From Malania oleifera (lineage: Eukaryota; Streptophyta; Magnoliopsida; Santalales; Ximeniaceae), in NCBI RefSeq assembly GCF_029873635.1, contig NC_080422.1:2460001-2524000 (forward strand): 64,000 bases of DNA, given 5' to 3'. The notes below the pieces were generated by a model. It was given only the letters and a program-made list of their open reading frames with translations, was not told where the DNA came from and made no database searches. The stretch's first letter is position 1. Every line of letters begins with the position of its first letter. Position numbers and translations under genes: made by a program. Of this stretch, positions 10,710-62,500 are shown in pieces.

Positions 10710-12496
10710 TGAAATTTAGGATAGCAACCAAAAGGGGGGTGAATTGGTTTATTTAGATTGAACTTATTATTTTTCTTTTTATTCTTACTTGTTGTAATTC
10801 AAGACTCTAAAAGTGAATTAATCAATTTTCAATTTAAACCAAATCACACCACAAAAACAAAATACAATCCAATCAAATATAAAACTCAACCAAACATTCA
10901 AGAATAATTTTTCCCTTTGATAGAAGTCCTGCAGCTGTTTTGCAAAACCTATTTTGAATGAATTTTTATTACTTTATCTCTTAACCAAGATTTTTGTAAA
11001 TTAACCAACGTACTCCCTTTTTTGTGTTTCCGCAAACGGTTAATAAAAATATACTTTCTTAAATCAAGAGACTTCCTTGAATATGATGTATAAACCCTGC
11101 AACCTGCGCTTGATATACACAGTATATAATGCGGAAAGTAAAGAGAGTAAGGAGAAGAAGAACACTGAGATTTATGAGGTTCGGCTTATTCCCAGCCTAC
11201 ATCATCGCCTTTGGTCAATTCCACCAAAGGATTCCACTAAGTATGCTCTTTACTGGGCAGAGCAAGCCTTTACAAAAATCCCTCTTTTGGATAGAGAAAC
11301 CTCTCCAAGTGAACAATCCTTACTCGGTACAATGATCCAAACAAGCCTTGAACCGTCAATAATACAAAAAGATTGCTATAATGATCTGTATACAAAATAG
11401 ACACTCGAAATAGAGTAGGGTTGTACAAGTTAGAGCACAATCAATACTTTAATCAAATAAACAATAAAGAAACTATGAACCTCAAGTGTTTAAAGATCAC
11501 CAAGAGTTTGTTTTGAATAATCAAACTCAGAGTATGTATCTTGGCTTTGATGTTTCAGCAGAGTTTTAGAACTTTTCTCTCGGATGGAGTGTGAGCAATA
11601 GATTGCTTTGAGAGATTGAATGCTTTAATTTCAAGAGAGCTGAGTAATTGCTTGGATGATCAGATTCTTGAGTTTAAAGGAGTATTTATAGGCATTGTTG
11701 GCTTAGTTTCCTTGTTCCCCAAAAGTCTTTAAGTAGTTTCCAAGTTTTCATAACGTTCATATTTTGGAAAGCCAAATTTTGAAATTTTCCCGTTGGAATT
11801 TACAAAAATAAAATCCGTGGAGTCAGTTGGCTGGGCAAGCGACTAGGTAGTTTAAAAATCACAGGGTCAGTCGGCTGGACAGGTGACTGGCACCATTCTA
11901 TCTCCCAAAAATTATTTCAAGAAATTTTCATTCAGGCTGGCAAAACACAGTTCATTTTGAGTCAGTTGGCTGGGTAATTTTGCCTTGGTTAAGTTAGTCG
12001 GCTGGACAGATAAAAGACTGGTTTTTGTTTTTGATTTTTCCATTTCAGTTTTACACTTATGATTTGATTTTTCATAAAATATTTTAGGGATTTAAAAATG
12101 AGTTTCTTAAGTTCATATTGGTCTTTTAAAGAGCTTCATATTTTTTAAATTGTCACTTGATACAAAGTGCTTACAACAAGCTTTTCTTTAAACATGATGC
12201 TTCAAGTCTTCGATAAGCCTCTTGACTTCAAGTCCCCCTTTTATCTTTAAGCTTTTAAGTACTGAGGCTTCAAGTCTTTTTCTTTACTGCTTTAGTTGAA
12301 GCTTTCTCTTGATATTCATAACTTGTTCTCTTGACATAATGAAAATGCACAACTTTTTCTTGATGATGCTTTAATTCATAGCTTCTTTCTCTTGTGTTGA
12401 GATATAATTCCTGAAACAAAAACACTCAACAAGCAAGTTATACCAGCATCATTTATTATCATCAAAATAAGATTGAAAAGCCTCGTTTGGCCAACA
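10710..12496 (-). mobile_element. Solo LTR, long-LTR copia family (copy A), TSD CATGG
   Basis: Flanked by perfect 5-bp duplications CATGG at 10705-10709 and 12497-12501. The plus-strand left end is TGAAATTTAGG leading into AAAAGGGGGGTGAATTGG; the right end is GGCCAACA. On its own (minus) strand it has a motif array (about 12022-11819), then TATAAATA (11690-11683), then the module containing GAGGTTCGGC on the opposite strand (11171-11205). Copia identity comes from related copy D at 52836, which is followed by a primer site and a copia-type gag. No internal sequence remains. Confidence 0.88.
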
Positions 12497-12501
12497 CATG
12501 G

Positions 12502-13390
12502 TTTAAATGAAATTTAAGGGAGCTACATGACAGCTACTAGAGTGTTGATGGTGATGTGCCAGTCATGACAAAGCTTCTAGTGACCAATTTAACTTGTCTA
12601 GCAATTAATAACATACGAGTCAAGATTATAAGGAGTTTAAGCAATGTTTAATGTAAGGCCAGAAGTGATAGTCAATTACCACCAAAAAGAAGGAAAAAGT
12701 AACCCCTTCTCTTTGAAAATTATAGAATGAGAGGAGGCAAGAGATCGAGTAAAAATTAGTGATAGTTTAAAAATCTTTTTGAATTCCCAATACCCTAAGC
12801 CTTTGTTTGCCACTCGAAAAATATTAGTGAAAGGAAAATAAAATATCAGGAAATTCATATTTTCATGTTTGATTATCACGAAAAGTGAAAAAAAAAATAA
12901 AAATAAAAAAATTAACAAATTTTATAAACAAAATTTTGATTTTACATACTATTGATATGTAGTTTTTCTTAATTTTTAGTCATATTAAAGTAAATTTTTA
13001 TTTTGAATAGAATTTAATAGAGAAAGAAAATATAAGGGAAATGAGTTTCTCTCTTATTTTCTTTTCCTTTCCTTTACTTAAGAAAAATTCTTGATTCAAA
13101 TGGATAGTGACTATGACTAACATTTTTTTAGTGAGCACCAGAATTATGAGTATTTTTTTTTTTAAATATATAAGGAAACAATAACGAAAGTTGGCTTTAC
13201 ATGTAGATATTGAAGTTGATATATACTCGTAACCATTGCTATCATCAAGCATACACTACTCTTCACTGGAAACAATTTAACGAGTCCCACTTGACATGCA
13301 ACTACACACATGAACTGAAAAAAAAAAAAAAAAAAACTATATACCATTTAGGAATAATAATTTCAATCCTTTAGTAGTTTGGTTTGAAAG
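12502..13390. other. AT-rich interval with one MITE-like repeat
   Basis: No gene seen. 12793-13103 is the reverse-orientation copy of a dispersed repeat also found at 25876-26157 and 46889-47194. It ends in GGATCAAAAATTTT-like and CCAAACTGG-like sequences and resembles a small non-autonomous DNA element; superfamily not determined. Confidence 0.6.
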
Positions 13391-13806
13391 TTTTGACGCG
13401 CAGCGATTTTAATCTTCCGATCAACAAAATAAATAGCACAAAGAACATTTACAGAAAAAAGTGTAGACAAGAGATTTTACGTGGTTCAGCAAGATTGCCT
13501 ACGTCCACGGAGTGTGCACCTGGAGAAAAATCCACTATGAAACGATGGTAGTACAAGATCTGATCAGACTCTCCCCGATCCCAGATCCCCTATACACCCC
13601 TTCAACTGTCAAACCAGTGAAGAAAAAATCTTCCTAGAGAGAAAGCCCCCTCTATCTCTCCTTGCACAAAATGACAATAAATACACTTTTTTTCCCATGG
13701 CTTACAACATATATATGACACCACACAACCATTGGATTTAGAGACGATCCAATGGCTGTGATAAAAGCCACAATAAAGAAATAAATAAAAACATATTTTT
13801 TTAACA
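13391..13806 (-). repeat. 3' LTR of nested-host copia element
   Basis: Matches 22495-22909 over its whole length. The terminal TG has decayed to TT at 13391-13392; the other end is TTAACA at 13806. The reverse complement of a polypurine tract (ATCTCCACCTTGGC) abuts it at 13807. Confidence 0.93.
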
Positions 13807-13987
13807 ATCTCCACCTTGGCTTTTAATCACAGCAAAGCACAACATTTCATCCCCACGCTCTGGGATGCTCTGTCAATAATCAACAAGAGACTACATTAAT
13901 TAATTCCAGACGACACTTGAACTTAGCTAATGTAATAGGCTTCGTGAGAATATCTGCAGCATTTCCATCTGTGTGGATCTTCAATAA

Positions 13988-16280: not shown

Positions 16281-16349
16281 TGTAAGAACCTGAATCGTGA
16301 TATATGAAATAAATTAATACGAGAAGGGTAGAATTGTAAATTGGGCAGG

Positions 16350-16569
16350 CTTCGCCAACGTAGCAAGAGTTCGTCGACGAAGGCCCTATAAGGTTCAGCG
16401 ACGAATTTCAAAGGCTCGTCAATGAGGAGAAGCCGAGAGGTTTCGGGAAACCGGGAATCTCAAGCTCGCCGATGAGCCCACCGTCTCATCGACAAACTGT
16501 CTTTAGTGACTCGTCGATGAAGACGCCATCTCGTCAACGAGGTTGGCTGAGTCAAAGGGCTATAAATAT
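16350..16569 (+). promoter_or_regulatory. U3 motif array (TCGTCGACGA type) and TATA box in gypsy solo LTR
   Basis: Eight variants at about 16350, 16370, 16395, 16415, 16464, 16485, 16511 and 16530, including one exact TCGTCGACGA at 16371. TATAAATAT follows at 16561-16569, then a CT tract. Confidence 0.72.
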
Positions 16570-17944
16570 CCATTTGGGTTGCTCAATCAATAAGAAATCA
16601 AAATATCCTCTTTCTTTCTCTCTCTCTCTCTAAGAACTTGAAAGACACACTCTCTCTCTAGATTTCTTCGTCGTACGTTGCTGGAATCGTAGATCTGACG
16701 TTACCACAAGGATTAGGGAAGGATTCTCTACAAGATTTGCGGATCGAATCTTCGTTCTGGGCATTTTCGAGTTTTGGCTCGAAATCGAGGTAAGGATTGG
16801 TTTTCAATTATGATATGGTAGTTATGTAGAGAGTAGAATTGTGAGTATACTTTGCACTGTGTTTTATAGTTTTTGAGAACTCGGTTCGCTGTTTAGGAAC
16901 CGTAGAATTCGAGATTGGATTTTTTGGGAAAGGTAAGGGAATTCTATTTATGTCGGTTATTTTCGAAATCGAACTCATTAGAACTGTGGTTCACGGTCCT
17001 GTGTGTGTTTTAGTTACTCATTTAAGGAAATCTAACAGGTCAAATTATGGATTTTTCATGTTACAGTTTTGGGAAAAAGGGGCATTGGGTGGCATCTCTG
17101 GTTTTGTTGGAAAACCATAAATATATTGTGATATATATTATGTTATAGGGATGGTTGTGCCTTGACTTGTTTAAATTGTATATGTTTGGAAAATCATAAT
17201 TTTAGATTACCAAATGGGTGTGGTTTGTGTGGTTATATAAGCATGCATAGTTGCGTTTTGTTGAAATACAATAGAAACGGGGTTCCGAATTGTTTCATGT
17301 ACTGAAAGAGTGTCTAGCTCTATATTCGAGGATGTGAAATATCACCTGCCATGTTTGGCAAGAGTGTTCGGCTCTATATCCGAGGGCGTGAGCCTTATCG
17401 GCTGATCATTGAAGGGTATGGACCCACCAGTTGTATCGGTATGATGCCATGGGAGCCTGGGGCTACGACATGTGCCGAGGACGCCGTGTAATGCGGGCCA
17501 GCTTTGGGCCGAAGGGTGTGACGATACCGGGTTATTTGATCATGTGTGTGTGTGTGAATGCACTGTACTCGAACTGTTTTGTGAGAATACTGGAATTGCA
17601 TTGAACTATGCATGTTTTATGTCATGATAACACTCATATGCGACACACCGATATAACCTGGATCTGCCTTACTGAGAAGTGTCTCACCCCTATCGTATGT
17701 ACATATTTTTCAGTTCCTTCAAGTAACTGGAACTAACGTCCTTGTGTTGGGAGCATAGTGGTCGGTGTACTGCTAGAAGTACTTGGGTAAGTACTAGAAC
17801 TGTATCGGGTTGTCTTTTGTGGTTTTGGCTGACACCCGGGTTTATGTTTTGTGTTATGGAACCTGGATTTCCTTTTGTATAGACTCTGGTATGGTACATA
17901 ATATGTATAGAAAGACCTTTCCGCTGTGTATTTGTAATGTATAT

Positions 17945-20145
17945 TGAAAAGTAAGGTGTACTCCCAAGAGGGGGGGTGAATTGGGTTTTAAAATTTTTCT
18001 TTTAAATCTTTTTAGGAATTCTTAACTTATTGTTGATTCTTCAAACTTTCAGCAAAAACTTATTTCTTTATTCAATCCACAACCACACAAACATTCAATC
18101 ATTCAAGTAATCAATCAACCAAACCAATCAACCACAATTTGAAAGCAAAGAACCAAACCAAGATTAAAATATACAGCACTTTGGGTAATGTAAGAACTTA
18201 AGATGGTTGTTTGTTTATATAAGCCCTATGGATATAAATTTGAACCAAGCCTTGTAGTTAATGATAATTTTTGCTTGCTGATATAAAGCCCTATATTAAT
18301 GGATTTGCTTCTTCAATATGATGTGCAATATAAAATCCAACACTCTTTCCAAAAGCCTAAACTTTAAATAAACTTTTAGTTAAAGAGCCTTTGGGGTGTT
18401 GACCAAACAACGTACTCCCTTATGGTTTCTGCAAAGTATTGATCAACCAACGTACTCCCTTTCGGTTTCTACAAGCCCAAAAACAATTTATACTTCAGTT
18501 TACTAAATTTCCAAACTTCGTAGTATAAATGATTAAGAATTTAAATCATCCACATAATTTATATGTGCTGAAAATAAAGAGTAAGGGAAAGAGAGAGTGA
18601 GACCGGAATTTTTACGAGGTTCGGCTTATACCCAGCCTACGTCCTTGCCTTTGGCAAACCACCAAAGGATTACTAAATTCAGTTCCTTTTCTGGACGGAA
18701 CAATACTGTTTACACTCCTTCAGTAGGCTAGAGCCCACCTCTCCAAACTATGTACCCTCGTTCGGTCACTCCTTTAATTAGGTTAGAGCCTGCTTCTCTA
18801 AGAAGTATCCCCTTACTTAGCCAACGATTCAAACAATCTTTGGAATCGTCAATCTATAAGAAACAAATCAAATATTTGTGTACAAAGAATTGCTCACACA
18901 AAGAGCTGATTAGTACAACAATTCAACACTATAATATACTTCAAAGTAAATAAACATATGGAAATTATCTTGAAGCTCAAGGGAGTATATTACCGATTAA
19001 TTCTTTCAATGATTGAAAGATTTAGAATTTGTGGCACAAGATTGGTGAATAGAATCAGCAAGAACTCAGTAAGCTTCGTGCAAGTTGAGAGCAAGAGAGA
19101 GCTTTGAGAATTTGAGAGCAATTGAGAGAGATGCTGAATTTAATTCTTGGTTTATTGATTCAATGATCTTTGAGGCTTATTTATAGACTTGAAAAGGTAT
19201 GTAACTTGATCCCCAAGTGACTTAGAGTATTCCCCAAGTTTTCACAAAGTTTGAGCCCCAAGCAATCTCATTTAAAAAATTTATCTGTTAGAGAAATTTT
19301 AAAACAGCCGCGTGATAGTTGACTGTCAGGTCTTTGGCAATCGATTGTCTAGTTAATTTAAAGGGATAGCAAGGTGGCAGTCACCTGACGAAACATGGAC
19401 AAGCATCTGACAGTGCAAAGTCAGGCTTTTATACAAACATGGATAGTCCGCTATCAGGCTGTTAGCTTCGAGCACTCTTCAATCTTTTGGTCATAACTTT
19501 TTCTATGTAACTCAAAATTTGACGTTCTTGGTGTCAAACAAAAGCTAAGAGAACTTTCATGTTAAACACTTTTTAAAAATATAGAACTTTTGATAGAGAA
19601 AAATGCACCTCAATGCGGATGTAGAAAAAACGACAGCAATTGGGAAATCCTCTTTTTGGTGCTTTTCATTCCAAAAATGATTCTTACCTTTTTGAAGCAA
19701 TTTTTGACCTTATAAAAATATTTTTCAAGTATTTTAAAAGGTATTTAGGTACAATAAATTAACCTAAGAGTTTCATGCATCCATATTGAAATTATTTGAA
19801 GTACTTACATGAAATTTCCTATAGACTCTTTCAAATTTTCAATTCTTGAATTCCTTGAGGTCTTTATGCTTGCTTCATCTCTCTTTGAGCTTTCATCAAG
19901 TTCTTTTTAATCCTCATGCTCTCATGATATTCAAGCTTTATCTTTGAATCCATTTTTGAATTCATGCTTTAAGCTTCATATAATCATCCTTATTTGAAAT
20001 ATAAGCTTTCATGAATCCTTCTGAACGCTTGACCTTGCATTTGCATTCATCATTGAATCCTAAAATGATATCACTTAACCAAATATGTTAAGTTCTACTT
20101 GTTTGTTAGCATCAAAACAAGATGCTAGGTCTTGTAAGGCCAACA
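17945..20145 (-). mobile_element. Solo LTR, long-LTR copia family (copy B), TSD TATAT
   Basis: TATAT flanks it at 17940-17944 and 20146-20150. The left end TGAAAAGTAAGGTGTACTCC aligns in length with the family start, followed by CCAAGAGGGGGGGTGAATTGG; the right end is AAGGCCAACA. The array lies at about 19465-19308, TATAAATAA at 19186-19178 on the minus strand, and the conserved module at 18609-18643. It sits inside the gypsy solo LTR, making the third nesting level. The AT-only duplication is weak alone but agrees with the ends. Confidence 0.86.
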
Positions 20146-22493: not shown

Positions 22494-22494
22494 T

Positions 22495-22909
22495 TGTTGA
22501 CGTGCAACGATTTTAATCTTCCGCTCAACAAAATAAATAGTACAAAAAACATTCACAGAAAAAATGTAGACGAGAGATTTTACGTGGTTTGGCAAGATTG
22601 CCTACATCCACGAAGCGTGCACTTGGAAAAAAATCTACTATGAAACGATGGCAGTACAAGATATGATCAGACTCTCCCCTATCCCAGATCCCTTATACAC
22701 CCCTTCACCTGTCAAACCAGTGAAGAAAAAATCTTCCTAGAGAGAAAGCCTCCTCTAGCTCTCCTTGCACAAAATGATAAGCAATACACTCTTTTTCCCA
22801 TGGCTTATAAACATATATATGACACCACACAACCATTGGATTTAGAGACGATCCAACGACTGTGATAAAAGTCACAATAAATAAATAAATAAAAATATAT
22901 TTTCTAACA
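22495..22909 (-). repeat. 5' LTR of nested-host copia element
   Basis: Starts TGTTGACGTGC and ends TTCTAACA on the plus strand. Contains the copia module (TTACGTGGTTTGGC to CCTACATCC) at 22577-22613. Confidence 0.94.
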
Positions 22910-22914
22910 AAAAG

Positions 22915-24390: not shown

Positions 24391-24402
24391 CGGAATGAGT
24401 AA

Positions 24403-36749: not shown

Positions 36750-37713
36750 GGGGTGAGCAACTTTATCATGACCCTTAGCCTTTATGTGTCACATGCAGAC
36801 AAAAAACTTTACCTTCGTGATTTTCATCACATTTTAAAAATTGAAAAGTAAAGATGTACGTACGTCCAACTGTTCAGGACCTCAATGTCATAACACGTGG
36901 ACGGTCCACAAGCGTTCACAAAGACTAACCTGCGATAATGTCCGCCCCACCGCTAATATATTTGGATATGCTGTGCACCACCACGTCGGCGCCCAGCCTC
37001 GCCGGCGACAGCACCATCGGCGCAAACGTGTTATCCACCACCACCTTCACCCCCTTATCGTGCGCTATCCTGCACAGCTCAGGCACGTCGGCCACCGTCA
37101 GCGACGGGTTCGCCATCGTCTCGAAGTACAGCACCTGCGTCTTCCCCTCCACGATAGCCGCCCGCACGGCTTCCAGGTTCGTCACGTTCACGAACGACGT
37201 CGTTATGCCGCACGCCCGAGGCAGGAAGTGGGTCAGCAGCGCGTGGGTCCCGCCGTAAAGCGCCTGCGACGCCACCACGTGGCCGCCGGCGCTGCAGAGC
37301 TGCAGGAGAACCGACGAGATCGCCGACATGCCGCTGGCCGTGCAGTAGGCGGCCTCGGTGCCCTCCATGGCGGCCATGAGGCGGCCGAGGTTTAAGACCG
37401 TCGGGTTGAAGTGGCGGCTGTAGATGAAGAAGTCGCGGTCCGCGCCGAGCTCGCCGGAGAACATGCGGCGCATGGTCTCCGGCTCCATGACGGTGAAGGT
37501 AGCAGAGGCCTCGATCGACATGTTCACGCCGCCGTGTTCGCCGAATTCGTGACGGGCGTTCGCCAGAGCCGCCGCCGGGTCCTCCCACAGAGGCGGGGGC
37601 GGGGCTGATTTCTTTGTCAGAATCATCGGCGGGTCGTCGTGCTTGGCGTCGAGGTCCGACGTGGTTCGCTTCCTGCCTTTAATAACGCCGCCGCCGAGTT
37701 CCGCTCCGGCCAT
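35845..37713 (-). CDS. MGL: Methionine gamma-lyase, two exons
   Basis: Exons 37713-36930 and 36425-35845 join in phase to give 454 residues, close to the plant family length. The enzyme uses PLP in the cytosol to split methionine into methanethiol, 2-oxobutyrate and ammonia, linking Met breakdown to isoleucine synthesis. Cys/Met-metabolism PLP fold: YSR at 98-100 and SGM at 127-129 (phosphate contacts), LYGGT at 152-156 (Tyr153 stacks on PLP; Gly replaces the Cys of bacterial lyases), Asp227 in VVVDNTF (ring nitrogen) and Lys251 in HSISKYISGG (Schiff base). No transit peptide is evident. An in-frame ATG at 37800 would add 29 Ser-rich residues, but TATATAA lies only about 9-15 bp before it, so ATG 37713 (context AATATGGCC) is preferred. 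No disabling change seen. Exon 1 is strikingly GC-rich. Confidence 0.95.
36426..36929 (-). other. Intron of methionine gamma-lyase (504 bp) with a long homopolymer
   Basis: Donor G|GTTAGT at 36930/36929 and acceptor TGCAG|GC at 36426/36425 restore Gly-Ala-Val-Cys-Gly in phase 1. The intron is AT-rich except for a G run of about 35 at 36714-36748 (a C run in the transcript). Confidence 0.92.
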
Positions 37714-37808
37714 ATTAGCTTGTTGGGATTGGGAGTTGGGAGAGTAAGAAGAAGAGGGAGAGGAAGAGGAGTGGACAGACGATGAAACGGAGACCGACAT
37801 TTGGTGGT

Positions 37809-37815
37809 TTATATA
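37809..37815 (-). promoter_or_regulatory. TATA box of methionine gamma-lyase
   Basis: The minus strand reads CTATATAAACC. A start about 30 nt downstream would fall near 37783, giving a CT-rich leader of about 70 nt before ATG 37713 (CTCCTCTTCCTCTCCC is visible). Confidence 0.65.
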
Positions 37816-39492
37816 GCAAAAGGGGGAGTGGCAAAATGGAGTCGGCGAGAGTGGCTGTTGGGATTTTTTGGGTGGCCTAGGTGGAATTAAGTACATTGAA
37901 CCTGGTCGTTTTCGTAAATAAAGGAAGAGGGTAGGCTCTGTTAAGTCTGAACAACGCCACGTTGGTCGCATTGTCACAAGCAGGACACACCGAAAATTAG
38001 GCGTATGAAAATACTTGTTTTCTTTTTCTACGAAGAAACTATTTTTACTATTTATTTTTTATTTATTGAATTATAAATTTATTTTTTGATTTTCAGAAAA
38101 TGAAAATTCAAAAATAAAGGTGGACCAAGACTTATTTTAGTTTGATCGTTTATATACATGTTCGAATGCAACTTTTGGGAATTTTTTTCAAATTTAATTC
38201 ATTTTAATTAAAAAATATTTAAGAAAAATTGGGGTGAAACTTTATTTCTGCAATTGATCCATCCATTAAAACGCTGAATCATTCGGACTGCGAATATCTT
38301 CTACCTCAGTAAGAACGTCTCGATCCTCCGCACCTCATCTATCTGAGTACCTAATATGACCCTTTAACTAAAGATGTCTTCCAAGAATAATGAATAATTA
38401 ATTAATGTGTATTCTTGATTAATTAGATTGATTAAATCTTGAACAAGCTCAACTTTAATAAATTTATTGATAATTAAAACTTGGGTCCTTTTTGAACTTG
38501 ACATATAACATATTTACTTAGGTCCTATGTAATAAAAAAAAAATGAAATGTCACGTCAAACCATTTTATTTTTTTATATTTCCTAAAATAACATATATTA
38601 ATTTTGTTCCAAATGTAAACACTCCAATTTTAATTAGGCCGTTTTGGAAAGAATCGGCATATTAAAAGTTGACTTTAAATCTCAAAAATTGGAGGATCAT
38701 TTTTGAAAAGTCTGACCGAATCTTGGTATTTCTAAATTGAACCCTGACATTTTTTAAAATTGAGTCCCGATTACATTTTAATCAAGTCCCTTTCAAAATA
38801 AGTAATTAAATTTCTAAAAAGAGTCCGGATATTTGTTTTAAGGTAGCTCCGGTAATTTAGTTTGAGTTTTGGCATTTTTTTAATTGAACCTTTTTAATTT
38901 TGTTTAGAGTGCGTCTTTTAAAGTGGTTCTTTTAAACTTTAAAATTGAGTTTGATGATTTCCAAAAATGGAGGCATTTTAATTAAGTATCTTGTCTTTAA
39001 AAAAATCAAGTCCCTCGTTCTCGAGCTCCTTTTATTTTCATGTCTTTTTGTTTAAATTGAGTCCAAGTTCGCTTATTTTTGGGAACTTAAGGTCATATTT
39101 TAATACTTGTTATTTCTTGCACGAGACTGGTCAACCTTGGTATGATATTTTAGCCAAAATTGGAATGCATGCATGAAATCACATATTTTATTAAAAGGGA
39201 GGGGCATGTGCCAAAGGTGTTGAGGTGCAGAGGGGTGTGGCAAAATGCATTGCAAATACATATGGTTAAAAATACAAAAAAAAAAAAAATATTGTACACA
39301 TACAAGAAATTACAACTGAAAGAATATAGGGAAATGCAAAAGAATACAAAAAAAAAAAAAAATACAAAGCAAAGTACAGTGTAAATACATACAGGGAAAT
39401 ACAAAGGAAAATATAGGAAAATCCAAAGAAAAAAGCTAAATACAAAGGAAAATTCCCTGAACTCGAGCTACATCTTACTCTCGAGGTCGTGT
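37816..39492. other. Lyase upstream region and degenerate array, no gene seen
   Basis: About 38640-39080 repeats words like AAATTGAGTCC and ATCAAGTCCC separated by T/A-rich spacers every 40-70 bp. About 39240-39440 repeats AAATACAAAGGAAAATA-like units. Both look like decayed LTR-internal arrays. Confidence 0.55.
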
Positions 39493-47778: not shown

Positions 47779-50473
47779 CGTTAGATTACCACTTTACCTA
47801 AAAACTTAAACTATTGAGTTATGGGTCAATAATATATATCAAGTTTTAACACTTCCATGTTGAGAATTTCACTTGTGAGTTTATATATATGGTTGGGGTC
47901 AAGACCCAATAGACTTAAGCTTTTGGGTCAAATTGGTATTCACCCATGTGTATCAAGCCCGGATTGGTTTGGAGGCACGTGAAATGCAATCCGACGCACA
48001 TAAAATACAAGTGGTAAGACTAACTTGATCAGCTGTTAGAGAATTAGGCTTACTCCCAGAAGGGAGACGGTTTCCGTTCTATTAGCTTTGGTGCAACCCC
48101 AAGAAGGGGAGGTGAATTGGATATTTAAAAATTATCGCCTATGTCAATTGGTTTAATAACAGTATTATACAACCTATGGTCAGTCTATGTAATCAATAAA
48201 TAAACATACACGTGCAGTAAAGTAAAGTGCGGAAAAAGTCAACGATACACGCGATATGTTATTGAGGTTCGGCCAAAGTGCTTACGTCCCCACCTTGGCT
48301 ACACCAGCACAAGGATTCCACTAATGCTCACTTGACGGGTGGAGTGGCACGGTTTACAACCAGAACAATTAACGGGGCTGATATCAACTGACACCTTATC
48401 AGGATAGTGCACTTAACTTTCCTAACCGGGTCTAAGCCAATCCGAGACTATTCCATATGGCTTGTGTCCCTCTTCAGGCTCACACCTGGAATACAACCAG
48501 TGATATAAAATTTATGTACAAACAAATGCTTCTTACACAGGCTGACATATACCACTACGCACAATATAATCAATACACCTCAAGAATGTACGAACTCTAA
48601 GCTCGGTGTTCTACGTGTGCAATCAACACTCAAGGTTATGTCTATAGTCTATCAAGCACAAGAGTGTTTTACAAGCTAATCTTTGAAAGCAAAGTATATC
48701 AAATCTCAATATTAGATTAGTATTTCAAAGATGCTAACAACAATATTCAAATCAACTCAAAAAATATTTTCCTCAATGAAATATGGCATAAGAGTTGTTT
48801 GAAAAATATTATAGCTTGTGAAAATATTTGCACAACAAAAATATAACTATAGGAATCTTGCAATGACAATGCAAAGATCCTCAAGCTACTTAGTTTATCC
48901 CAACACAAGATTTATTAAATTTAAATCTGTGGGATAAACTTAGCTTAACTCCCCAAAATAAATATCAACCAATCAAGCAAACAATGGGAGTACTAGCCAA
49001 TTAATAATATAACAATAACACACTAAATCCTCTCACAATGTTGGGATTTATCAAAGGAATGAAGGAATGAGAGTATTTGGAAGTAGAATGGGCAAAATAA
49101 GATTATGGATTTTCAGAGAATTTTTACCCTAATCTTTTTGCTAATCCCCCCTAATTTTGATAAATGATTGGGTATATATAGAAATAGGGGAAAAATAACC
49201 GTTGGGGGACATGCTGGGAATTTTTCAAAATGTTTTAATTGTGTTTAGAAAAATTAACCCTGTTTAACCAACTTAATTACAGTAAAAAAATAAGCAACTC
49301 GAGAGGTTTCGGGTGGCTGAACCTTAGTTTGGTCGCCCAAATAGACTCAACTCAAAAAGTTATTTTTAAAATGTTCGAGTGCCTGAATCTAGGTTTGGTT
49401 GGCTGAACCAAGGCATGCAATTTTCCTATTGTCCGCGGTTCGGGTGCTCGGTCCAACATTCAACTAACCAAACCCACAAGTTCGGTTGCTCGAGGTCATA
49501 TTAAACTATAAAGTTTGATCGCTCGAGTTGGTGAAAAGTAATCTAACATAGGTTCGGTCGCCCGAGGGTAGTATGTTCATTACTGGTTCGATCGCTCGAA
49601 ACTAGGTCAACCCGCTGACTTCCCAACGATTTTGGCCCCCGAGGTGTTTTGAACACCAAGGGTTCGTTCACCCGAAACCTCATGATTTTGATCCTTTAAG
49701 TCCAATTTTAAACCAATTGATTCCCCTAATTATGTAAGTGATATGGGGATTGTTTGTGCATTTGTTTAAGGACCTAAGGTCTTTCCATCGTACCGAAAAA
49801 ATTCAGCGTCATTCGATCCTTAAGGTCTCTCTAAGGTCTTAAGCTTATAGTCTTACATGCATAATATGCAGATTATTATAGACCTTGGATGATTATTATT
49901 ATAAACCCAACGAAATGAAATATAGATTACAACAATTAAAAACATTTCAAGTCTTCATTTTCCTCAAGTTGCCATGTGTTATCAATATGATCTTCCTAAT
50001 ATGGTCCTGCACACAAACTTGGAAAACGTTAAATACTGGCGTATTTGTCATAATCAAAACAGGGTATAACCCATGGGATCAACACGTTCAAAGGGGAGCG
50101 GTTGGTTGAAGGGGAGATTGTTGAGAATTTCACTTGTAAGTTTGTCCTACATTGGAAAAATTGAGTGGATGATGTGTGCTTATATACATGGTTGAGCCCA
50201 AGACCCAATAGGCTTAAGCTTTTTGGTCAAGTTAGTGTTCACCCAATGTATCAAGCCCACCCATGGGCTCCTCCGGTTTTAACATCCCCCGCACGTGCAA
50301 CTCGGTAGCGCATGAAAAGATAAACACAAGATATAATCACAGAATAAATGTAGGCGATAAGACTAGAATGAAGGATCTCCTAGAAACCGACTCTGAAACT
50401 ATATTAGATTACCACTTATCTAAAAGTTTAAGTTGTTAGGTTGTGGGTTAACAATGTATATCAAGTTTTAACA
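47779..50473. mobile_element. TRIM-like complex, split by a solo LTR
   Basis: Two pairs of short direct repeats are nested. Outer: 47779-47851 and 50402-50473 (about 72 bp, TTAGATTACCACTT to AAGTTTTAACA); left of the second, GACTCTGAAACTATA resembles the complement of a tRNA-Met primer site, suggesting minus orientation. Inner: 47858-47957 and 50119-50284 (TGTTGAGAATTTCACTTG to TTTTAACA), the second preceded by a purine tract GAAGGGGAGAT. Without the solo LTR the whole is only about 0.7 kb and non-coding. Confidence 0.6.
48080..50084 (-). mobile_element. Solo LTR, long-LTR copia family (copy C), TSD CGTTC
   Basis: CGTTC at 48075-48079 and 50085-50089 is an exact duplication. The left end TATTAGCTTTGGTG (TG decayed to TA) leads into CCAAGAAGGGGAGGTGAATTGG; the right end is GGGATCAACA. 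The array with TTCGGTCGCCCGAG-like words is at about 49290-49680, TATATATA at 49172-49180, and the copia module at 48260-48289. Confidence 0.92.
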
Positions 50474-52835: not shown

Positions 52836-54988
52836 TGTTGACTCTATGAGTCTAATCCTGTTTTGATAATGATAAATCACTTGATATTTGATCTGTGCAT
52901 TGAGAATGTGAGCAGGAACATTACTTAGCATGCACAGAAGGTGACGAAGACATGGAAGCCACGAAAATTAAAGCATATATATAACCCAACACAATCTATG
53001 GAACTAAAAGAGTAGAAGAATGAAGATGCAAGTGTCAAGTTCAAGATCGTCATGAGAATGAGTATTTAGAATTGATGTATGTGCATACTTTATATGATAT
53101 AACTAGAAGCTCAAAATAAACCATACAGATGCATATCATGAAAGCTTTCTAGGGTTAAATATGGATTTAGAGAACTTATTTTTAAACACTGGAAAATGTT
53201 TTACAAGAGGTTAAAGTAAGAGAGCTCAAATGATTTTGAAAAACTAAACTGAAAATTCTGGAGTGAGTCTGCCCAGACGACTAAGGATTACCCTCATAAG
53301 TATGAAAATTCAACTTCAGACGACTGAAGTTTTTTCTTTAGATGTCTGAAGAATTTCCTTAGAAGACTGAAGAATTAATTCAGTCATCTGAAGATTTAAT
53401 TACTGAAACACAGAACATGCAGAACACCCTCAGACGTCTGAACCTTCAGTTTAGTCATCTAAACTAGGGACTTCATAAGACTGAACCCTCAGTTCTGTCG
53501 TCTAACCTTGTGTCCAGACTATAACTTTCAGTGCTTTAAGGAAAATCAGACGTCTAAACCTGAATCTTTAGTCATATGAACTTGCGAAAAGTTTAAAAAT
53601 CTAATATTTAGTGAGAGAACACACAGATTATACACTTGATCAAATTGATCCAATAGTCAAAACTTATCTTAAGGCCGAGATTACCTATATAATCAACCTC
53701 TAAACCCTAGTGTCTCAAACTTTTGTAATAGGATTGGGAACCTTGAACGTATACACATCTCTTAACATTGTTGAACTTATTGCTAAGCTCTTGTCTATGA
53801 TTTCAAAGCGTTTACATCATATTAAAGATTGGGCTACGTTGATTTTCAAAAGGGGTTCTAGCAACTATTGTGCAAACAACTTTGGTATTAAGGTTTGGTG
53901 ATCAAACTAAGTGTTTGCTTGTTCTCAAAGAGTTTTTCATCTTACAAACTTATCATTGAATATTCATTTTAAGAAGTTGATCGTGAGTTATTATCTATAT
54001 ATATATATTGTGGAAGATCACTACTTAAGAAAAGCTTTTGTTTAAAACTAAAATCTTGAAGAAAGTTTTAAATATATCTTCATTCAAAGGGTTGCTTTTT
54101 TATTAGTGTAAGAAGTATTTGATACAAATCCTAAGAACCTCTAAATACATATTATTGAGGGATATTATTTTTCAAACATAGAGTTTAAATCTTTGCTATA
54201 TTCAAAGCTGTTTATTTATTCAAAGATCCAACGTTACAAATTATTGATAGTAAGAATATAGATCTGCGCATTATCAAAGATTATTTTTGAAAGGATCTTG
54301 TTTTCTAATCTTGCTTAAAGTATTCTGAAATCGAACCTTATTTTTTCTCCAAAGCATTTATTTATAAAATTATATTTGGGAGATATTGATTTAAAGGATT
54401 GATTTGTAAAGCATATCATTCATATAACGATATCATCGTTACATACATACTTCAAGTTTTATCATATGAATATGTGTTAGGTTTTCCATTGTTCTCACTA
54501 GCTTTGTTAGGAGCAATATTGAGTTTTTGCAGATTTGAAATTTTATATTATAATCACGGTTCGGGTTGTAAATCAGGTGAGGAGAAAGTTGTGCCTCTTG
54601 TAAGCAGCGGATTGTAAGGGAAACTCTGTCCCAGTTAAAGGAGCATAGATTTAGTGGAATCCTTGAGTGGGTTGCTCAAGGCGAGGACATAGGTCGGGTT
54701 GGCTGAACCTCGTAAAATCGTGTTTGCCTTCTCTCTCTTCCCTTATCTTTTAAATTTCCGCTTGCATTTCATTATCAACTTTTACATGTGTGTATGTTGA
54801 TTTATATTATACGAACTTGATAATTAATTAGGTAAACTAGAATTTATTGAGATAATAATTTGAATTAACTCCAACCCCTTGCAATTAATTTGTTAAATAT
54901 TGAAATAGGGACTAAGTGGTAGAATAAACTTAAAGATATTTAAAATACCCAATTCACCCTCCCTCTTGGGATTACACTTGAATTAACA
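52836..54988 (+). repeat. 5' LTR of a long-LTR copia element (copy D)
   Basis: Starts TGTTGACTC and ends AATTAACA, followed at once by the primer site, which fixes the orientation of the whole family. Motif array at 53266-53585 (CAGACGACTGAAG-type), TATA-like CTATATAAT at 53685, copia module at 54683-54716, and CCTCTTGGGATTACAC near the end. 2153 bp. Confidence 0.9.
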
Positions 54989-55002: not shown

Positions 55003-55067
55003 GAGTTTACATAGACTTAACTGTTCATTTTGTAAAAGGATCACATAGCATACATTGGTGTAACTCC

Positions 55068-55335
55068 ATTCGGCGAGGGACACTCGTCCACTAGACCACC
55101 AATTTTTTGTGGTGTAAATTACACCTATTGGAAAAGAAGAATGAGTATATATCTTAAAATTATGGATTGAAAAGTGTGGAAAAATTTTTTTTTCAAGGGA
55201 AACCATGTCCCTATGAAAGTAGTTGATAAGGTAAATGTACCCAAAACTGAAAATGAGTATAATGAAGAAGATTGGAAATCTGTGCAAATAAATGCTACTG
55301 CAATGAACTTGTTATTTGACTCACTCAAAAAATGA
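55068..55335 (+). pseudogene. gag: Copia gag N-terminal remnant of copy D
   Basis: One frame reads EGHSSTRPPIFCGVNYTYWK, RRMSIYLKIMD, a TGA, then KVWKNFFFKGN, EEDWKSVQINATAMNLLFDS and a second TGA. This is the N-terminal pattern (RPP-F-G-NY-YWK-RM) of plant copia gag of the UBN2/SIRE-like type. Homology ends abruptly near 55335, where Athila/Tat-like sequence begins, so the rest of the element is deleted. Expressed gag would bind element RNA; this copy is dead. SIRE-like assignment is tentative. Confidence 0.8.
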
Positions 55336-56190: not shown

Positions 56191-56232
<42 letters not shown>

Positions 56233-56720
56233 GTGGCAGCAAGACTGCAGGTGGGAGGTCTCGAGTGGCTGGTATGGCTTCGGGTTTGCTGGAGCATGTT
56301 CTCAGGTGTGGCTATACTTCTTGGGTAGATCACTGCAGCAGAGCAGCAGCATCAGCACGGCAATGGAGTTCTAGGGATGGTCACTATAGCAGAGCAGCAA
56401 CTGGGATGTCTGGGGAAGAGAAAGCTAGAGGAAGAAGAAAGGAAGAAGAGGGAGAGGAGAGAGGGAAGGAGAGAGTAAGGGAGAGTAGGGAAGGAGAAGG
56501 AGAAGGAGGGAAGAAGGAGAAGAGAGAAGAGGAAGGACAAGGAAGGGAGAGAGGTTGTGAGAAAATAGGGAGAGAAAGGGAGGAAGGAGTTGTGCGGGGG
56601 CTGTGTGAAAAGAGGGAGAGCAAGGGAGAATATATAGGGGAGGGGTGAATACCCTACACACGCCAAGGTACCCAGAAAAAGTGGATCCGACCCGGCTGCA
56701 TGGCCGAATCACATCTATAT

Positions 56721-56762
<42 letters not shown>

Positions 56763-59530
56763 TTCTTTTCCTTCTTTTTGTTTCTTGGCGAACAAGGGTG
56801 ATTTTGACCCTTCTAGAGCCCGTTTCGGTCGAAGTTCAAAACATGAAAATTGTAGATAATCTTCTCATATTTTTCTAAAATTTTGAATCATCTCGATCGA
56901 ATCTCAGATGTAAAATGTATGCGCGAATTACGAATTAATGCCGGTTTTAGCTCCCGATAATTTTTTCTGCGATAAAAAATGTCAAAAATTCATAAATTGC
57001 TCAATAAAACCCAAATATTATAAATTGGACACTGTGTTAGAATATTGAGAGTAATTAGGTATTTAATTAAAAATATAAGCTCTAATACACGAATTAAAAT
57101 GCCTAATTACGCAGTTTAAGCGCGTAATCACCCCCCCAAACTAACGTTTTTTTAGTCTCTAGTAAATAATGTGAATGAATTTTAGGGCGGTATCCACAAT
57201 TACTAACTCCAAAAAACATGAAATTAATGCCCATGCAACACAATCATACCGTTTCAGATACAGGAATATAACTGAATTTCACACAAGTTCGTTCATATTC
57301 AATGCACACAACCCTGAAACACGTCACTCATGCAAGTTTCATTATTATATAGCATTTAAGAATAGTATACTCACATGAAGTTAACCAGCGGTACAATTCA
57401 GAGTTAATGCGATCATATAAGTTCGAGTATAAATAGGTGAAATCTCGAGGAATGTGTGATGTGTGTGACTCATTACACCTAAGATACTAGTAGATACCTA
57501 CAAAACGGTCGTGTTGACTCAGATTACTGGTATACCCTCAAAAAAATTCAAAAAGAATGGGTTCACTCGTCATATGTGAGGAGGAGTGTTGCGATCAAAC
57601 CTCCCACACAATGCAATGAACAAACGCTAAGTATATGCAGTGGACTAGTTTAAGAAGGATCTAGCCTATCTATGAGGTGTCGGGTCCTTCACCCTAGCAT
57701 CTTCTCACCTACTCGCCATGTCCAACCGAGACCACCTTAGATCAACTTATTTATAAACTTGATGTGAATACATCTGACGCATTAAACGGTTGAAGAATCT
57801 TCATATGTGGAAAACATGTGTCGCGCCCTTGATTTTTTGTGGTATTTCTATGGAGCAGACATTAGCATTTCATTTCATGTGCATTTCTATTTCTTATTCT
57901 TTCTTCTACTCATTCTTCATTTTCTGTCTTTTCTTGGTCAATTAGGACAATCATTACACTTCTTTTGTTGTCTTCATATCATCAATGAGAATTAAGCTTG
58001 AACAATAGTCCATGAACTAAGTCTATTTATAGGGGTGGCTCACTCTTCACATCTTGAATAGGCTACAAGACCTAGGTTTTTATCTCCCCACTAGATGTCA
58101 CCTCTAGGCTAGCAAGTTAAAAACAAAGACTAGTGTACAAAGAATCATCCAGAAGAATAGAGAATCGAGTTTCATGAACTCTGATTTTATGTTAACACTC
58201 AAAAGGGCGATAAATAGCTTAAGGATATCTCACAAGGTGTCATAGTCGTCACGGGTGTTCTCTCAGCACTCACGAACCCTAAGTGCAATTAATCACGTGA
58301 ATGTGTCTATTCAGCCTCATGAGATGCAGTGTAAATACAAGATTTTATGCAGCCAAATTAACACGAGTGTACTACCAATCAATTCTTCATGGAGTTACAA
58401 AGTCATATAAAGTAAAACTACACATAAATGGCTCGAGTGTGTAATTCTTAGGTTCTATGCAAGTATGTGAAGGGTATATGTCAATGTTAATCATGGCATA
58501 ATTGTTTATCCTCAATACTCTTTCTTTCTTTCTTTCTTTCTTCTTTCTTTTTATTAATATAAAACCCAGCAAGTATACGTGCACAGTGTCATATGCAAAT
58601 GTTCACCCCCCCCCCAACTAAAGTGGAACATTGTCCTCAATGTGAAAGCATAGGGGAAATAGAAAAACTGTGCACGGGAGAAGTAGGGTGTACCTGGGTA
58701 GAGAAGTAATGGAAAAGAAAAAATGAACTACAAGAAAATGTACCTGAAAATTAACTAAAACTAAAATAAGGTAAAACAAAATGAAAAGAAGGGAAAGAAA
58801 AACATCATAGTTGTCTAGCGGAGGCTCTGGAGGAATTTTGTCTAGTGGGTGCAGGTTTATAAATTGAACTAGTGGGTCTCCAAATTTGAGCCACCACAAT
58901 GAATCAGTCTGCATACTTGCACGAAAGTCAGCCCCAAATGCATTAATACTCTTCAAAATACTAGACAATACATGTGCAAATTGACTTTCTCGTTTTAACA
59001 AGAAAGGTTCTTTATTCAACATATTTTCTAGGGAATTTACTTCTTTATAAATTAGTTTTTGAGGAAAAGTTGTTGGAACAGTTACCTTTAGTTCTTCTGA
59101 AGCATTAGCATTAAAAGTTTTACCTAATTCCTTGAAAGTTAAACATTCACCATTCTGCTCACCCTCTTTATTGGGTGTACCAATCATCTTACCACTATGA
59201 GGATTTGCTTCAACTTTGGACTCCTTAACATTTATTCCAATCCGGAGTGACAGTTCCACGACTGCCAAGCTCTAAGGATAAGGTACCACAGGTTGGTACT
59301 CCTTATTAGTATTGGCCTCCTTATTAATTGACTACTTCACTTCTAGGCTCGTTTCCTCTGGTTTTTCTTTGACTTCATCTGTCTCAGCCATAACTTCCGG
59401 TGTCAGGACAACCGGTTGTCTGTCGATGAGCCCCTCAGGTTGGGAAACTTCTTTCCCGCTTCTCAAAGTAATGACGGTCTCCACTGTCTCAAAAGAAACT
59501 TTATGTATTTTTTGTTATTGCTGCTAGTAT
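55336..59530 (-). mobile_element. Decayed Athila/Tat-type gypsy fragment, minus strand
   Basis: Mostly non-coding. The left part (about 55336-57140) has LTR-like character with (GA)n (56190-56227) and (TA)n (56722-56758). The right part has CCCCCCCAACTAAAGTGGAAC at 58611, then a weak open frame and a gag-end-like segment. Pol is missing, so this is an internally deleted remnant. Family call rests on the TLRSGKEV-type gag end and general composition; moderate to low certainty. The open frame at 56265-56648 is low-complexity Gly/Glu/Arg from a GA-rich tract. Confidence 0.5.
58618..59268 (-). pseudogene. Unidentified retroelement-associated open frame (216 codons)
   Basis: Open from ATG 59268. 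Residues 1-150 look protein-like (SLRIGINVKESKVEANPHSG, CLTFKELGKTFNANASEELK, LHPLDKIPPEPPLDNYD). The last 60 residues are hydrophobic, Phe/Leu-rich low complexity and probably not coding. I do not recognise a family. Just upstream in the same direction (about 59527-59290) another frame reads ETVETVITLRSGKEVSQPEG, like the gag-pol boundary of Athila/Tat gypsy elements, then stops. Probably decayed retroelement coding sequence rather than a host gene. Confidence 0.4.
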
Positions 59531-62500
59531 TCTGGGTTTCTTGAAATGTTTAAATTCTGGATGAGACACCTCTTGTTGACCTTATAGGTCACACCTGATT
59601 TTGATAATGACAAATACTTAGGTATTTGATGGTTTTCAAGTTTATGTGCAGGTTTATATTAGCAAATCAGTTGATGGCACACAAAGTAAAGCCTGAAGAC
59701 CCTGAAAACTATTTATTGTTGTAATTTATATTATTTGGGTCTGTAATAATTTATTTTTGTCTGTAATCATCTCTGTCTGTATGCATGTAGGTAATTGTAA
59801 GCTCAACAAGACCGAATTTTTTCAGTGTCCTCATAGACCCTAGAAAGGCCTTAGGTCCCTACACAAATGCACAAAATAGTCCTCATAATCACTTATAATA
59901 TCAAGAGAATTAGTTGAAGTGAAAAAGGACTAAATAGGCCAAATTTGTGAGAGATCGAGCGATCGAACCCTAGGAGTTCAAAACTCCTCAGGTGCCTGAA
60001 CTGTTGAGAAGTCAATAGTTTGACCAGGCTTCAAGCGACCGAACCTATTTTGACCCTATCTCCCAATGGTGCCCGAACCCTTTGAAAAAGACATTTTACC
60101 AACTCGGGCTGCCAAGCATTTTAGTTCAAATAGGCCCTAGGTGACCAAACACGTGTGTGTAGGCTACCAAACCTAGGATCGGGCACCCGAACCTACGAAC
60201 AAATATTTTTGACTTTTGTTCGGGTTACCGAACCTACACTTAGGCTGCCGAACCATTTCTAAGGCCTTTTAAAAATGTGTCTATTTGGGCGACTGAACCT
60301 CGGTTCAGCCACCCGAACCTTGTTGGGTTAAATTTATTTTAACTGAGGTAAAATTGAGTTAATTTGGGTTAATAGTGCTTAAGCATTTTGGAACTTTTCT
60401 AATAATACCTAATGGGTCCCAAACGGTTATATTTTTAGCCTTGTCTATAAATATGGGTTCATTTGTGAAGATTAACAAGAGATTAGCAAAAAATCATTAG
60501 TGGAAAATCCTCTCTTTTTCAAAAACTCATATTGCCCAAAATACTCTCAAATACTTATTCCCTTAATACATTTTAGTATTGTGAGAGCATATTGGTTGTG
60601 CTAGTGTATATTAGGTATTGCTAAAACTCCCATTTGCTTGATTGATTTTTGATATTATTTTTGGAGAATTTGGCTAATGTTATCTCACAGATTTCAATAT
60701 TATATATCTAGGGTTAGGATAAACTAACAAGCTTAGGGATCTTTGCATTGTCATTGCAAGATTCCCTTAGCTTTGATTTTATTGTGCAAAAATATTTTCT
60801 ACAAGCTATAATATTTTTCAAACTACTCTTGAGCTCATTACATTGAACGAAAATATTTTGAAGTTTGAATATTTGATTAAGCATATTTGAAACTCTAATT
60901 CATTATTGAGATTTGATATGACTTGTTTCAAAGAAATAGATTGGTTAGAACACTCTTGAGCATTCTTGTGATTATATCTTGTTGAGTGTGGCTTGCACAA
61001 AAATACACATCACTGAGCTTACATTTACCTATATAGTTTATGTGCATTTTATTGATCTATATTGGTACATATCTGCTTATCAGAGAAGCATTATATTGTA
61101 CACAGTTTGTATTGTAATTCGGTTGCATTCCAGGCGTGGCCTGAGGGGGCGGTAATCTAGACTGTAAGGATTGTTAGGGCCTTCTTCGCCCCGCAAGGAG
61201 ATTGTGTAAAGGTTGAGGTTAGCCCTGTGCTAATTGACCTGATTGTATTAGGTGCCGCTCCACTCATTAAGTGAGCATTAGTGGAATGATCGGGCTTGCG
61301 AGCTAGAGGCAGGGACGTAGGCACAGTTGGCCGAACCCCAATAACATTTCTTGTACATGTTTTTAATTTTCGCATTTTAAATTTTAGCACATAAATGCTT
61401 GTATTTGTGAATGATTGGGTTTATAATTGCATAGACAGACCCTAGGTTAAGTAATACTGTTGTTAGATTAGTTGAACCTAGGAGAAAATTTTTAAATACC
61501 CAATTCACCCCCCCTCTTGGGAATACACCAAAGCTAACACCTCTCAATAAGGCAGAATAAATTATTGACAGTTTGTGGCACATGAGTTTAGTTATATCAC
61601 AATACACTCATTTAAATGATTATATCATCTGAGAAAAATATACACATATGTACTCATAATCATATAGATATAAAATATGGTTTCATAAGTTTTGATATTA
61701 TTTCTCATATTCATATTCATAGGATATCATTTCTCATAACCATATACATATACTTTCATTTTTCATCTTTATATTCATACTCTATCATTTCTCTTATCAT
61801 ATACATACTCTTTCATTTCTCTTATCATATGCATACTCTTTCATTTCTCATATTCATATTCATTCTCTAGCCCATGAGTATCCTCCGGCATAAAGCACCA
61901 CTCATCTATAACTCATGGCTGTTCATTTCATTTTTCACTTTTCATAAACATTTTCTAACTCATGAGCATCCATCAGTATATAATACACGCCACATCTGTA
62001 GCTCATGGCTGCATATTATCGCGTCTGTAATGAGAAACCAACCTATGGATATTCACTTCGTCATGTATTCACCCAACATAACCGAGTTGTACGGCCTAAA
62101 GGTTAGACCTAACCACAATTGACCTACCCGGTTAAATCAAAACGGGGAACACATATGTAGTACAATTGGCCTACCCAATCCTGGTTCGGACCCAAGGGAG
62201 TAACACAACCCTTCATAGGCCCAATTGACTGTCTTGTCACACTCTGTACCAGCCACGTGGTTGCACTAAAACAATGCTAGCAACGGTACCGTGCTCTTAA
62301 AATAACTTTGGTCCATCAAGGTTCTCATTTCCACATTTTAGTATTCATATTTCATTATGTATGTATAATTATCATCACATCTATATATATATATATCAAA
62401 ATTTCTGTATAATTCTCTGTTCAACATTTCTGTACAAAACATCTTTAAGTATTTCACATATCATTATTTCAGTATAAAACACATGTGTATTTCTCATTTC

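Follow-up and report, generated by a model that had tools for sequence, protein, structure and literature searches.

Arrays of short repeated words were found upstream of the TATA box in long terminal repeats (LTRs) of several retrotransposon families in a 64 kb window of the Malania oleifera genome (positions 2,460,001 to 2,524,000 of NC_080422.1, designated contig C6), in which LTR retrotransposons were abundant. The arrays probably act as promoter-proximal cis-regulatory platforms for dimeric binding proteins, which are probably encoded by the host. One of the words, the palindrome YTCGTCGACGAR, occupied the same slot in Ty3/gypsy and Ty1/copia LTRs and was probably exchanged between the two superfamilies. 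Positions are numbered from the first letter of the window, and the genome searched comprised 1.49 Gb in 510 contigs.

The YTCGTCGACGAR array in gypsy and copia LTRs

On scanning for further arrays, 24 matches to YTCGTCGACGAR (up to two mismatches) were found in the 64 kb, and 21 of them lay within 598 bp of three LTR slots, designated G1, G2, and G3, all on the forward strand. G1 (5695–7809, ends set by eye) was the 3' LTR of an element assigned to Ty3/gypsy by the presence of RVT_1 and a Ty3-type gag, with gag, protease, and RVT_1 pieces at 964–3347. Its array (5832–5974) contained six units, and the TATA box was located at about 5983. G2 (9864–10451) was the 3' LTR of a Ty1/copia element that was not a Sirevirus, as indicated by an RVT_2 piece at 8589–8942, an LTR of 588 bp, and a single polypurine tract (PPT) of another type; GGTGGAGAT preceded the LTR in the window copy. 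Its array (9945–10138) contained eight units. G3 (16281–17944, start set by eye) was a gypsy-like LTR that was broken by a solo LTR, described below as LTR B, and continued from 20151. Its array (16370–16541) contained seven units, with the TATA box at about 16561, and G3 and G1 had a 23-bp U5 piece in common.

Two further LTRs with YTCGTCGACGAR were found in sequence flanking two of the fetched loci (L039 and L005), with the TATA box about 10–20 bp past the last unit. The L039 LTR was followed by a primer-binding site (PBS) and then by gypsy gag-like DNA, which matched the window's own gypsy gag sequence at 67% over 195 bp (E 5e-10); no reverse transcriptase was seen at this locus. The word thus filled the slot in G1, G3, L005, and L039, all four of them gypsy or gypsy-like, and in one Ty1/copia family (G2). 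Judging by LTR design, the four gypsy or gypsy-like LTRs may belong to Del elements.

The units were arranged in a recurrent geometry. The spacings in the copia LTR G2 were 21, 25, 22, 47, 21, 25, and 21 bp, and those in the gypsy LTR L039 were 21, 25, 21, 46, 20, 25, and 21 bp. The corresponding values were 21, 20, 46, 24, and 20 bp in G1; 24, 21, 50, 20, 25, and 20 bp in G3; and 22, 46, 46, 21, 25, and 21 bp in L005. The Sirevirus-type LTR D, with another word, gave 22, 21, 21, 50, 21, 22, 21, 52, and 22 bp. Neighbouring spacings of 20–22 bp, a bin picked after the window had been inspected, made up 17 of the 27 in G1, G2, G3, and D (random mean 3.1; 17 was reached in none of 20000 simulations) and 7 of the 13 in the later-found L039 and L005 (random mean 1.4; 0/5000). 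Two helical turns of DNA correspond to about 21 bp, and paired units would therefore face one side of the DNA. The spacers between units in G1 and G3 were no more alike than shuffled sequence (217/300 and 86/300 shuffles, respectively).

The elements carrying these LTRs were nested. The Ty3/gypsy element (5' LTR tail 1–665, 3' LTR to about 7809) lay in a Ty1/copia element (window 1–10451) with pol at 7810–9758 and its 3' LTR at 9864–10451. The 5' LTR of this copia element may be represented by a match, L026, that lies some 14 kb upstream along the contig. A second copia element, with LTRs at 13393–13807 and 22497–22910 that were 91% alike, formed three nested layers: the copia element held the gypsy-like G3, which in turn held the solo LTR B. 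No palindrome array was seen in the LTR of this second copia element. A 25/54-bp tandem repeat of the TTATGTTATCGGCACGAGGCCG type was located at 6763–6924 in G1, downstream of the TATA box. Pfam searches with the open reading frame (ORF) at 8964–9758 and with positions 58621–59271 gave no match.

Similarity between the copia LTR and the gypsy LTRs

With the words left in, positions 16–272 of G2 aligned with the L039 LTR with a score of 136, compared with a maximum of 63 in 100 shuffles. The scores of G2 with G1, G3, and L005 were 73, 86, and 79, and the maxima of 100 shuffles were 62, 54, and 56, respectively. With the words masked, G2 and L039 scored 62, and the maximum of 300 shuffles was 44. 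The masked controls, namely the Sirevirus-type LTRs and the second type of copia LTR in the window, were not above their own shuffles. The central spacer of G2 also matched L039 (9/2000 shuffles). Downstream of the array, no such match between G2 and L039 was found (13 of 200 shuffles reached it), which places the break at the edge of the array facing the promoter, as would be expected had the distal U3 been replaced together with the array.

These similarities suggest that the YTCGTCGACGAR block was probably exchanged together with the distal U3 between Ty3/gypsy and Ty1/copia. Exchange is favoured over the alternative, in which word and spacing converged independently on one host factor; either account would point to a host factor. 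A more specific model has a little under an even chance. A self-contained enhancer module of eight YTCGTCGACGAR dyads, spaced about 21-25-21-46-21-25-21 bp and used by unrelated LTR retrotransposons within one plant, would have moved as a block from a gypsy into a copia U3 and been amplified there. Both superfamilies would plug into one host dimer binding in same-face pairs, and the Sirevirus families would use the same slot with other words, D with the same two-turn spacing. A literature search on LTR exchange between superfamilies found one parallel case (PMC11302176, seen in part), which is compared below. Searches with the four literal word strings returned, among the matches listed, only papers that were unrelated by title.

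The five long LTRs and their families

The sequence-only reading of the window had described five LTRs as one copia family with a different motif in every copy. LTRs A (10710–12496), B (17945–20145), and C (48080–50084) were located on the reverse strand, and LTRs D (52836–54988) and E (59574–61539) on the forward strand. A, B, C, and E were solo LTRs because their 5-bp flanks were identical (target-site duplications CATGG, TATAT, CGTTC, and CCTCT, respectively). D had no 5-bp flank duplication and was a 5' LTR adjoined by the PBS-like stretch TTTGGTATTAGAGC. All five LTRs had TG ends in common. A 19-base C-rich signal, scored at up to three mismatches, occurred at exactly five places in the 64 kb, each near the 3' end of one LTR, compared with an expectation of 0.14; five places were reached by none of 100 shuffles. 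The signals in A and in C had three mismatches. The five LTRs proposed from the letters were thus borne out by their ends, TATA boxes, and C-rich 3' signals.

The ends and TATA box were common to the five LTRs as described, whereas the downstream module that they were also said to share was seen in A, B, and D. This module, GGACGTAGGC...GCCGAACC(t/a)CGTAAAA, lay downstream of the TATA box at 11130–11240, 18566–18676, and 54624–54761, respectively. A similar module was seen by eye in the copia LTR G2 (about 10333–10361) and in the copia LTR at 13393. The arrays were located upstream of the TATA box as claimed; the distance from the array end given in the sequence-only reading to the TATA box was 100–128 bp in all five LTRs, not 70–220 bp.

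C and E were 68% identical over the whole length, array included, with one word and one array of 386 aligned columns and five gap columns. Otherwise the mutual alignment of A, B, C/E, and D was limited to pieces of about 40–170 bp. Since C and E aligned end to end and the others only in short modules, the five LTRs represent four families and not one; nearly all of U3, and not the array alone, differed between families. Five private motifs within one family were ruled out by the C/E alignment and the four-family structure. A third LTR of the C/E type, at locus L006, also had the C/E word, in seven units (up to four mismatches). At the same locus, a copy of LTR A had C/E-type LTR sequence on both sides, as if inserted in a C/E-type LTR.

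Support for word arrays in LTRs A to E

The arrays lay on the strands of their LTRs. That of D (53266–53585) contained ten units of TTCAGACGWCTGAA (up to three mismatches), with seven of nine neighbours 21–22 bp apart, and Tandem Repeats Finder reported a 21-bp period at 53318–53376 within it. The C/E word, GTTCGGGCGACCGAAC, was present in seven units in C (49290–49680) and six units in E (59945–60322), with up to four mismatches. The array of A (11819–12022) contained four copies of TGYCCAGCCRACTGAC, one within the longer imperfect dyad CAGTCACCTGTCCAGCCGACTG. The region claimed for B (19308–19465) had three short inverted repeats, and a repeated word was unsupported there. Every test run gave good support to the word arrays of D and E. 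Those of C and A were also supported, that of C by word clustering and by homology with E and more weakly by the 12-mer and inverted-repeat tests. That of B was unsupported, so that the claim of an array in each of the five LTRs was borne out for four of them.

The commonest 12-mer was present in nine copies in D and six in E (each reached by 0/60 shuffles), five in C (8/60), and five in A, one outside the array (19/60); the commonest 12-mer of B, in six copies, was a word outside the array. Clustering within 400 bp of 10-mers and 8-mers was reached by 0 and 1 of 100 shuffles for D, 1 and 0 for E, and 3 and 0 for C, respectively. The best words of A and of B in this analysis fell outside the array. 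A had a 16-mer in four copies, all within the array (0/100 shuffles), and the best 16-mer of B occurred in just two copies, equalled by 98 of 100 shuffles. The C/E word was found at 13 places in the 64 kb, all of them within C (seven) or E (six), compared with a simulated mean of 0.3 and a maximum of 2. The D word was found at 21 places, ten of them within D (simulated mean 9.4, maximum 16).

By eye, the C/E and D words were dyads with CG in the centre. Short inverted repeats in the array numbered six in D (reached by 0 of 200 shuffles), seven in E (1), three in B (3), and four in C (19). When the whole window was scanned, D and E ranked first, and a CpG-rich, gene-like stretch at 37181–37480 also scored; the inverted-repeat measure by itself therefore does not single out LTR slots. 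An ORF at 36925–37977 on the reverse strand, where the window is richest in CpG, had a Cys/Met metabolism PLP-dependent enzyme domain and is probably part of an ordinary gene. The observed/expected CpG ratio was higher in the array than in the rest of the LTR in C (1.10 vs 0.52), E (0.81 vs 0.31), and B (0.64 vs 0.37). As RNA, the C, D, and E arrays gave more stable folds than their shuffled controls (z −3.87, −4.72, and −4.27, respectively), and the folding of the A and B arrays was ordinary (z −0.39 and −1.54). The five arrays were also folded in 110-nt windows, and none of these 290 windows reached the microRNA-like cut-off of −40 kcal/mol.

Sirevirus membership

Family A has the PBS and PPT signatures of a Sirevirus. 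The PBS junction CA/ATTGGTATCAGAGC was exact in three of eight flanked loci (L004, L008, and L009); the remaining five had no PBS at that end, being solo, 3' LTR, or cut. The PPT AGGGGGAG, located 10 bp before the 3' LTR and followed by AT/TG, was found in one of the eight loci (L005), where PPT octamers lay at −10, −63, and −251 and AT preceded TG. In L003, the terminal PPT was altered, and one octamer was present at −304. The C-rich integrase signal, in the form AATTCACC, was located within the last 120 bp in 24 of 28 copies of family A.

B, C/E, and D appear Sirevirus-like by LTR end and design, a likeness short of proven membership. B and C/E had the C-rich integrase signal and LTRs of over 1 kb, and D had the same signal and a junction, CA/TTTGGTATTAGAGC, that differed from CA/ATTGGTATCAGAGC at two positions. 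Compared with the figure of at least eight palindromic units used for Sirevirus repeated motifs (RMs), D had ten, C seven, E six, and B none at the mismatch limits used; family A had four units in the window copy and 4–7 across the 28 copies. By eye, the C/E word had the CGG-CCG core signature, the A word had half of it, and the D word lacked it. Searches for the C-rich signal gave no match in viral contigs and one in genome contigs, a chance hit to bacterial genes within a bin assigned to Burkholderiales, and no plant relatives were retrieved from these collections.

Constancy and divergence of the arrays

Copies of family A and of the copia family G2 were aligned. The family A sample consisted of 28 copies, namely the window copy and 27 of 39 other places (20 fetched as copies and seven as loci; table of 42 rows), from the best 40 of 8861 candidates. 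The G2 sample consisted of 30 copies, the window copy and 29 of 39 others, from the best 40 of 3950 candidates. Among these closest copies, the array slot was kept in 28/28 for A and 30/30 for G2. Of the matches to the word, 158 of 159 lay inside the slot in A (up to four mismatches) and 215 of 215 in G2 (up to two mismatches; 5–8 units each). The TATA box was found in 24 of the 28 A copies and 24 of the 30 G2 copies, and its distance from the last unit was 127–142 bp and 79–100 bp, respectively.

All-site divergence of the array exceeded that of most of the LTR in both families, at 0.136 vs 0.076–0.119 elsewhere in A and 0.162 vs 0.094–0.167 in G2. In columns outside CpG and CHG, the excess was gone (array 0.073 vs 0.059–0.105 in A and 0.071 vs 0.064–0.097 in G2), and transversions were not raised in the array (0.027 vs 0.022–0.041 and 0.030 vs 0.020–0.053, respectively). 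The fastest stretch in both families was that between array and TATA box, where transversions reached 0.041 in A and 0.053 in G2, compared with 0.020–0.030. Of the deviations from the word in the 21 units of G1, G2, and G3, 21 of 25 were CpG transitions, compared with only 4 of 24 in D. For C and E, identity was 65% in the array, 67% and 69% in the upstream and downstream flanks, and 59% between array and TATA box. The alignment of family members and comparison of array with flanks that the sequence-only reading had proposed, run on A and G2, thus gave an array that was not faster outside CpG/CHG; faster evolution of the array than of its flanks was rejected. The apparent fast change is best read as loss of methylated CpG/CHG cytosines in silenced copies.

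Proposed mechanism and alternative explanations

The arrays are best read as binding sites for regulators, which occupy a constant slot ahead of the TATA box and whose words differ between families, and in this part the sequence-only reading seems to have been right. The unit is a short dyad that would suit a dimeric DNA-binding protein. It is present in 4–10 copies upstream of the TATA box, with the near edge at about 100–130 bp in Sirevirus-type LTRs and nearer in gypsy LTRs. Each Sirevirus-type family has its own word, inherited by its copies, and YTCGTCGACGAR is set in a fixed geometry, its paired units lying about two helical turns apart. A host protein may bind the dyads in dimeric form, occupying pairs separated by two turns, and activate the LTR promoter; host encoding of the protein is suggested because elements without a common regulatory gene have one word. 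The plant would methylate the arrays, and silent copies would lose them by deamination. The other words in the same slot of Sirevirus-type families may serve other members of a protein family.

Several observations weigh against this mechanism and the proposed exchange, in addition to the way in which the spacing bin was chosen. With the words masked, the alignments of G2 with a second LTR in L060 and with L005, G1, and G3 were reached by 11, 31, 54, and 202 of 300 shuffles, respectively, and did not clearly stand out, which leaves a match to one gypsy LTR only; the central spacer of G2 did not match L005, G1, or G3 (485, 361, and 1160 of 2000). If exchanged, the gypsy and copia arrays are not independent cases. 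The spacers were alike in G2 (0/300 shuffles) and somewhat in D (18/300), so that duplication accounts for part of the even spacing there. The units of family A were not 21 bp apart, and C and E each had one neighbouring pair 20 bp apart and no more. In the array of A, short inverted repeats numbered zero, with no excess (200/200 shuffles), and CpG was not enriched in the arrays of D (0.44 vs 0.51 in the rest) and A (0.31 vs 0.40). The word array in B was rejected: its word occurred at 86 places in the 64 kb, four of them in B, compared with a simulated mean of 129.8. Scoring of the closest copies in the genome searches with A and G2 favours copies that retain the array, and array loss in remote copies would therefore escape notice.

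Four other explanations were weighed against host regulator binding. Slippage and unequal exchange could create short tandem arrays in U3 that then decay without any function, as the alike spacers of G2 and, less so, D and the 21-bp period within the D array would suggest. This is improbable, since in G1 and G3 the units repeat and the spacers do not, and the placement relative to the TATA box recurs in unrelated LTRs. The quick turnover proposed by the sequence-only reading, as escape from a sequence-specific silencer or pursuit of a changing regulator, agrees with the different words of A, C/E, and D and the higher all-site divergence of the array in A and G2. It is nevertheless very improbable and the least likely of the four: C and E retain a single array that is about as similar between them as its flanks are, the excess divergence in A and G2 is confined to CpG/CHG, and word and place were kept in every aligned copy of both families.

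The remaining two explanations involve silencing. In one, the protein of each family would bind its own tandem word and lift silencing, with word and protein co-evolving as for VANC of Arabidopsis VANDAL. Word arrays in non-coding DNA with a private word per Sirevirus-type family are what this predicts, and according to the sections consulted, VANC targets are short tandem words that diverge quickly (PMC5735166, PMC10398659). The same sections describe VANC21 words as non-palindromic and in one orientation, whereas the words here are dyads. Moreover, one word serves gypsy and copia elements without such a common gene, and the array is no faster than its flanks outside CpG/CHG; we consider this explanation unlikely. 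In the other, RNA read through the palindromes would fold into hairpins that feed small RNAs, the arrays being mainly host recognition sites, an idea that Bousios et al. 2016 put forward on the basis of maize Sireviruses (as cited in the consulted parts of PMC5311732 and PMC10760457, where maize palindromes are small-RNA hotspots). The stable folding of the C, D, and E arrays and the methylation implied by CpG/CHG decay fit such a target. On the other side, no RNA window reached the microRNA-like cut-off, A and B were not unusual, and a pure liability would be lost rather than held in a fixed geometry. As the principal role of the arrays, it has little probability; as a side effect, it is compatible with regulator binding.

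Comparison with known systems

The sequence-only reading knew of no description of such a pattern; Sirevirus repeated motifs were, however, published by Bousios et al. 2010 (PMC2829016). According to the sections consulted, these RM boxes are palindromic repeated motifs shortly upstream of a conserved TATA box, differing per element, in Sireviruses with a C-rich integrase signal, and a CGG-CCG core is present in 12 of 13 published RMs. The LTRs here share with them the short palindromic units in the upper half of a 1–2 kb copia LTR, the position near the TATA box on its upstream side, another word in nearly every element, and the C-rich 3' integrase signal. The Vitis RM CGGTCGACCG resembles the C/E word. 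The words of D and A differ in not having the full CGG-CCG signature, in which they are like Tnd-1, and the arrays of A and D do not coincide with CpG islands. Furthermore, RMs were called Sirevirus-specific and absent from classic copia elements, but an array is present in G2, which is a copia of the classic type. Unit spacing was measured here; the sections consulted of that paper report none. The palindromes of maize Sireviruses (Bousios et al. 2016, via PMC5311732 and PMC10760457, in part) likewise form a palindrome-rich, variable cis region, with a small-RNA hotspot and strong foldback. The within-family variability here is CpG/CHG mutation, and the folding is below the microRNA-like cut-off.

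The 5' CpG islands of the gypsy Del elements (Cruz et al. 2014, PMC4029996), for which their authors suggest escape from host control, also consist of variable sequence, rich in CpG, within the 5' half of the LTR. However, the sections consulted describe no palindromic unit, and eudicot Del elements are given there as having no islands. VANC/VANDAL (PMC5735166, PMC10398659, in part) has in common with the present LTRs arrays of short words in non-coding transposon DNA that differ between families; those elements are DNA transposons with non-dyad words, read by element-encoded proteins.

Which protein binds the Sirevirus palindromes has been a question since 2010. If gypsy and copia elements do have one word and spacing, the binder is likely to be a host protein, one bait would be enough to search for it, and regulatory blocks would be seen to pass between the LTR promoters of different superfamilies. 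The finding on CpG/CHG sites is also a warning that promoter words that seem fast-evolving in silenced elements can reflect methylation decay. A parallel to an exchange is QuinCent, an LTR segment upstream of the promoter in both the gypsy Quinta and the copia Gisela of einkorn, for which gene conversion was proposed (PMC11302176, in the sections consulted). QuinCent differs in being a 162-bp nucleosome-placing segment with no palindrome array. The slot arrays of Sireviruses were thus already known, and what is new here is the YTCGTCGACGAR array common to gypsy and copia LTRs.

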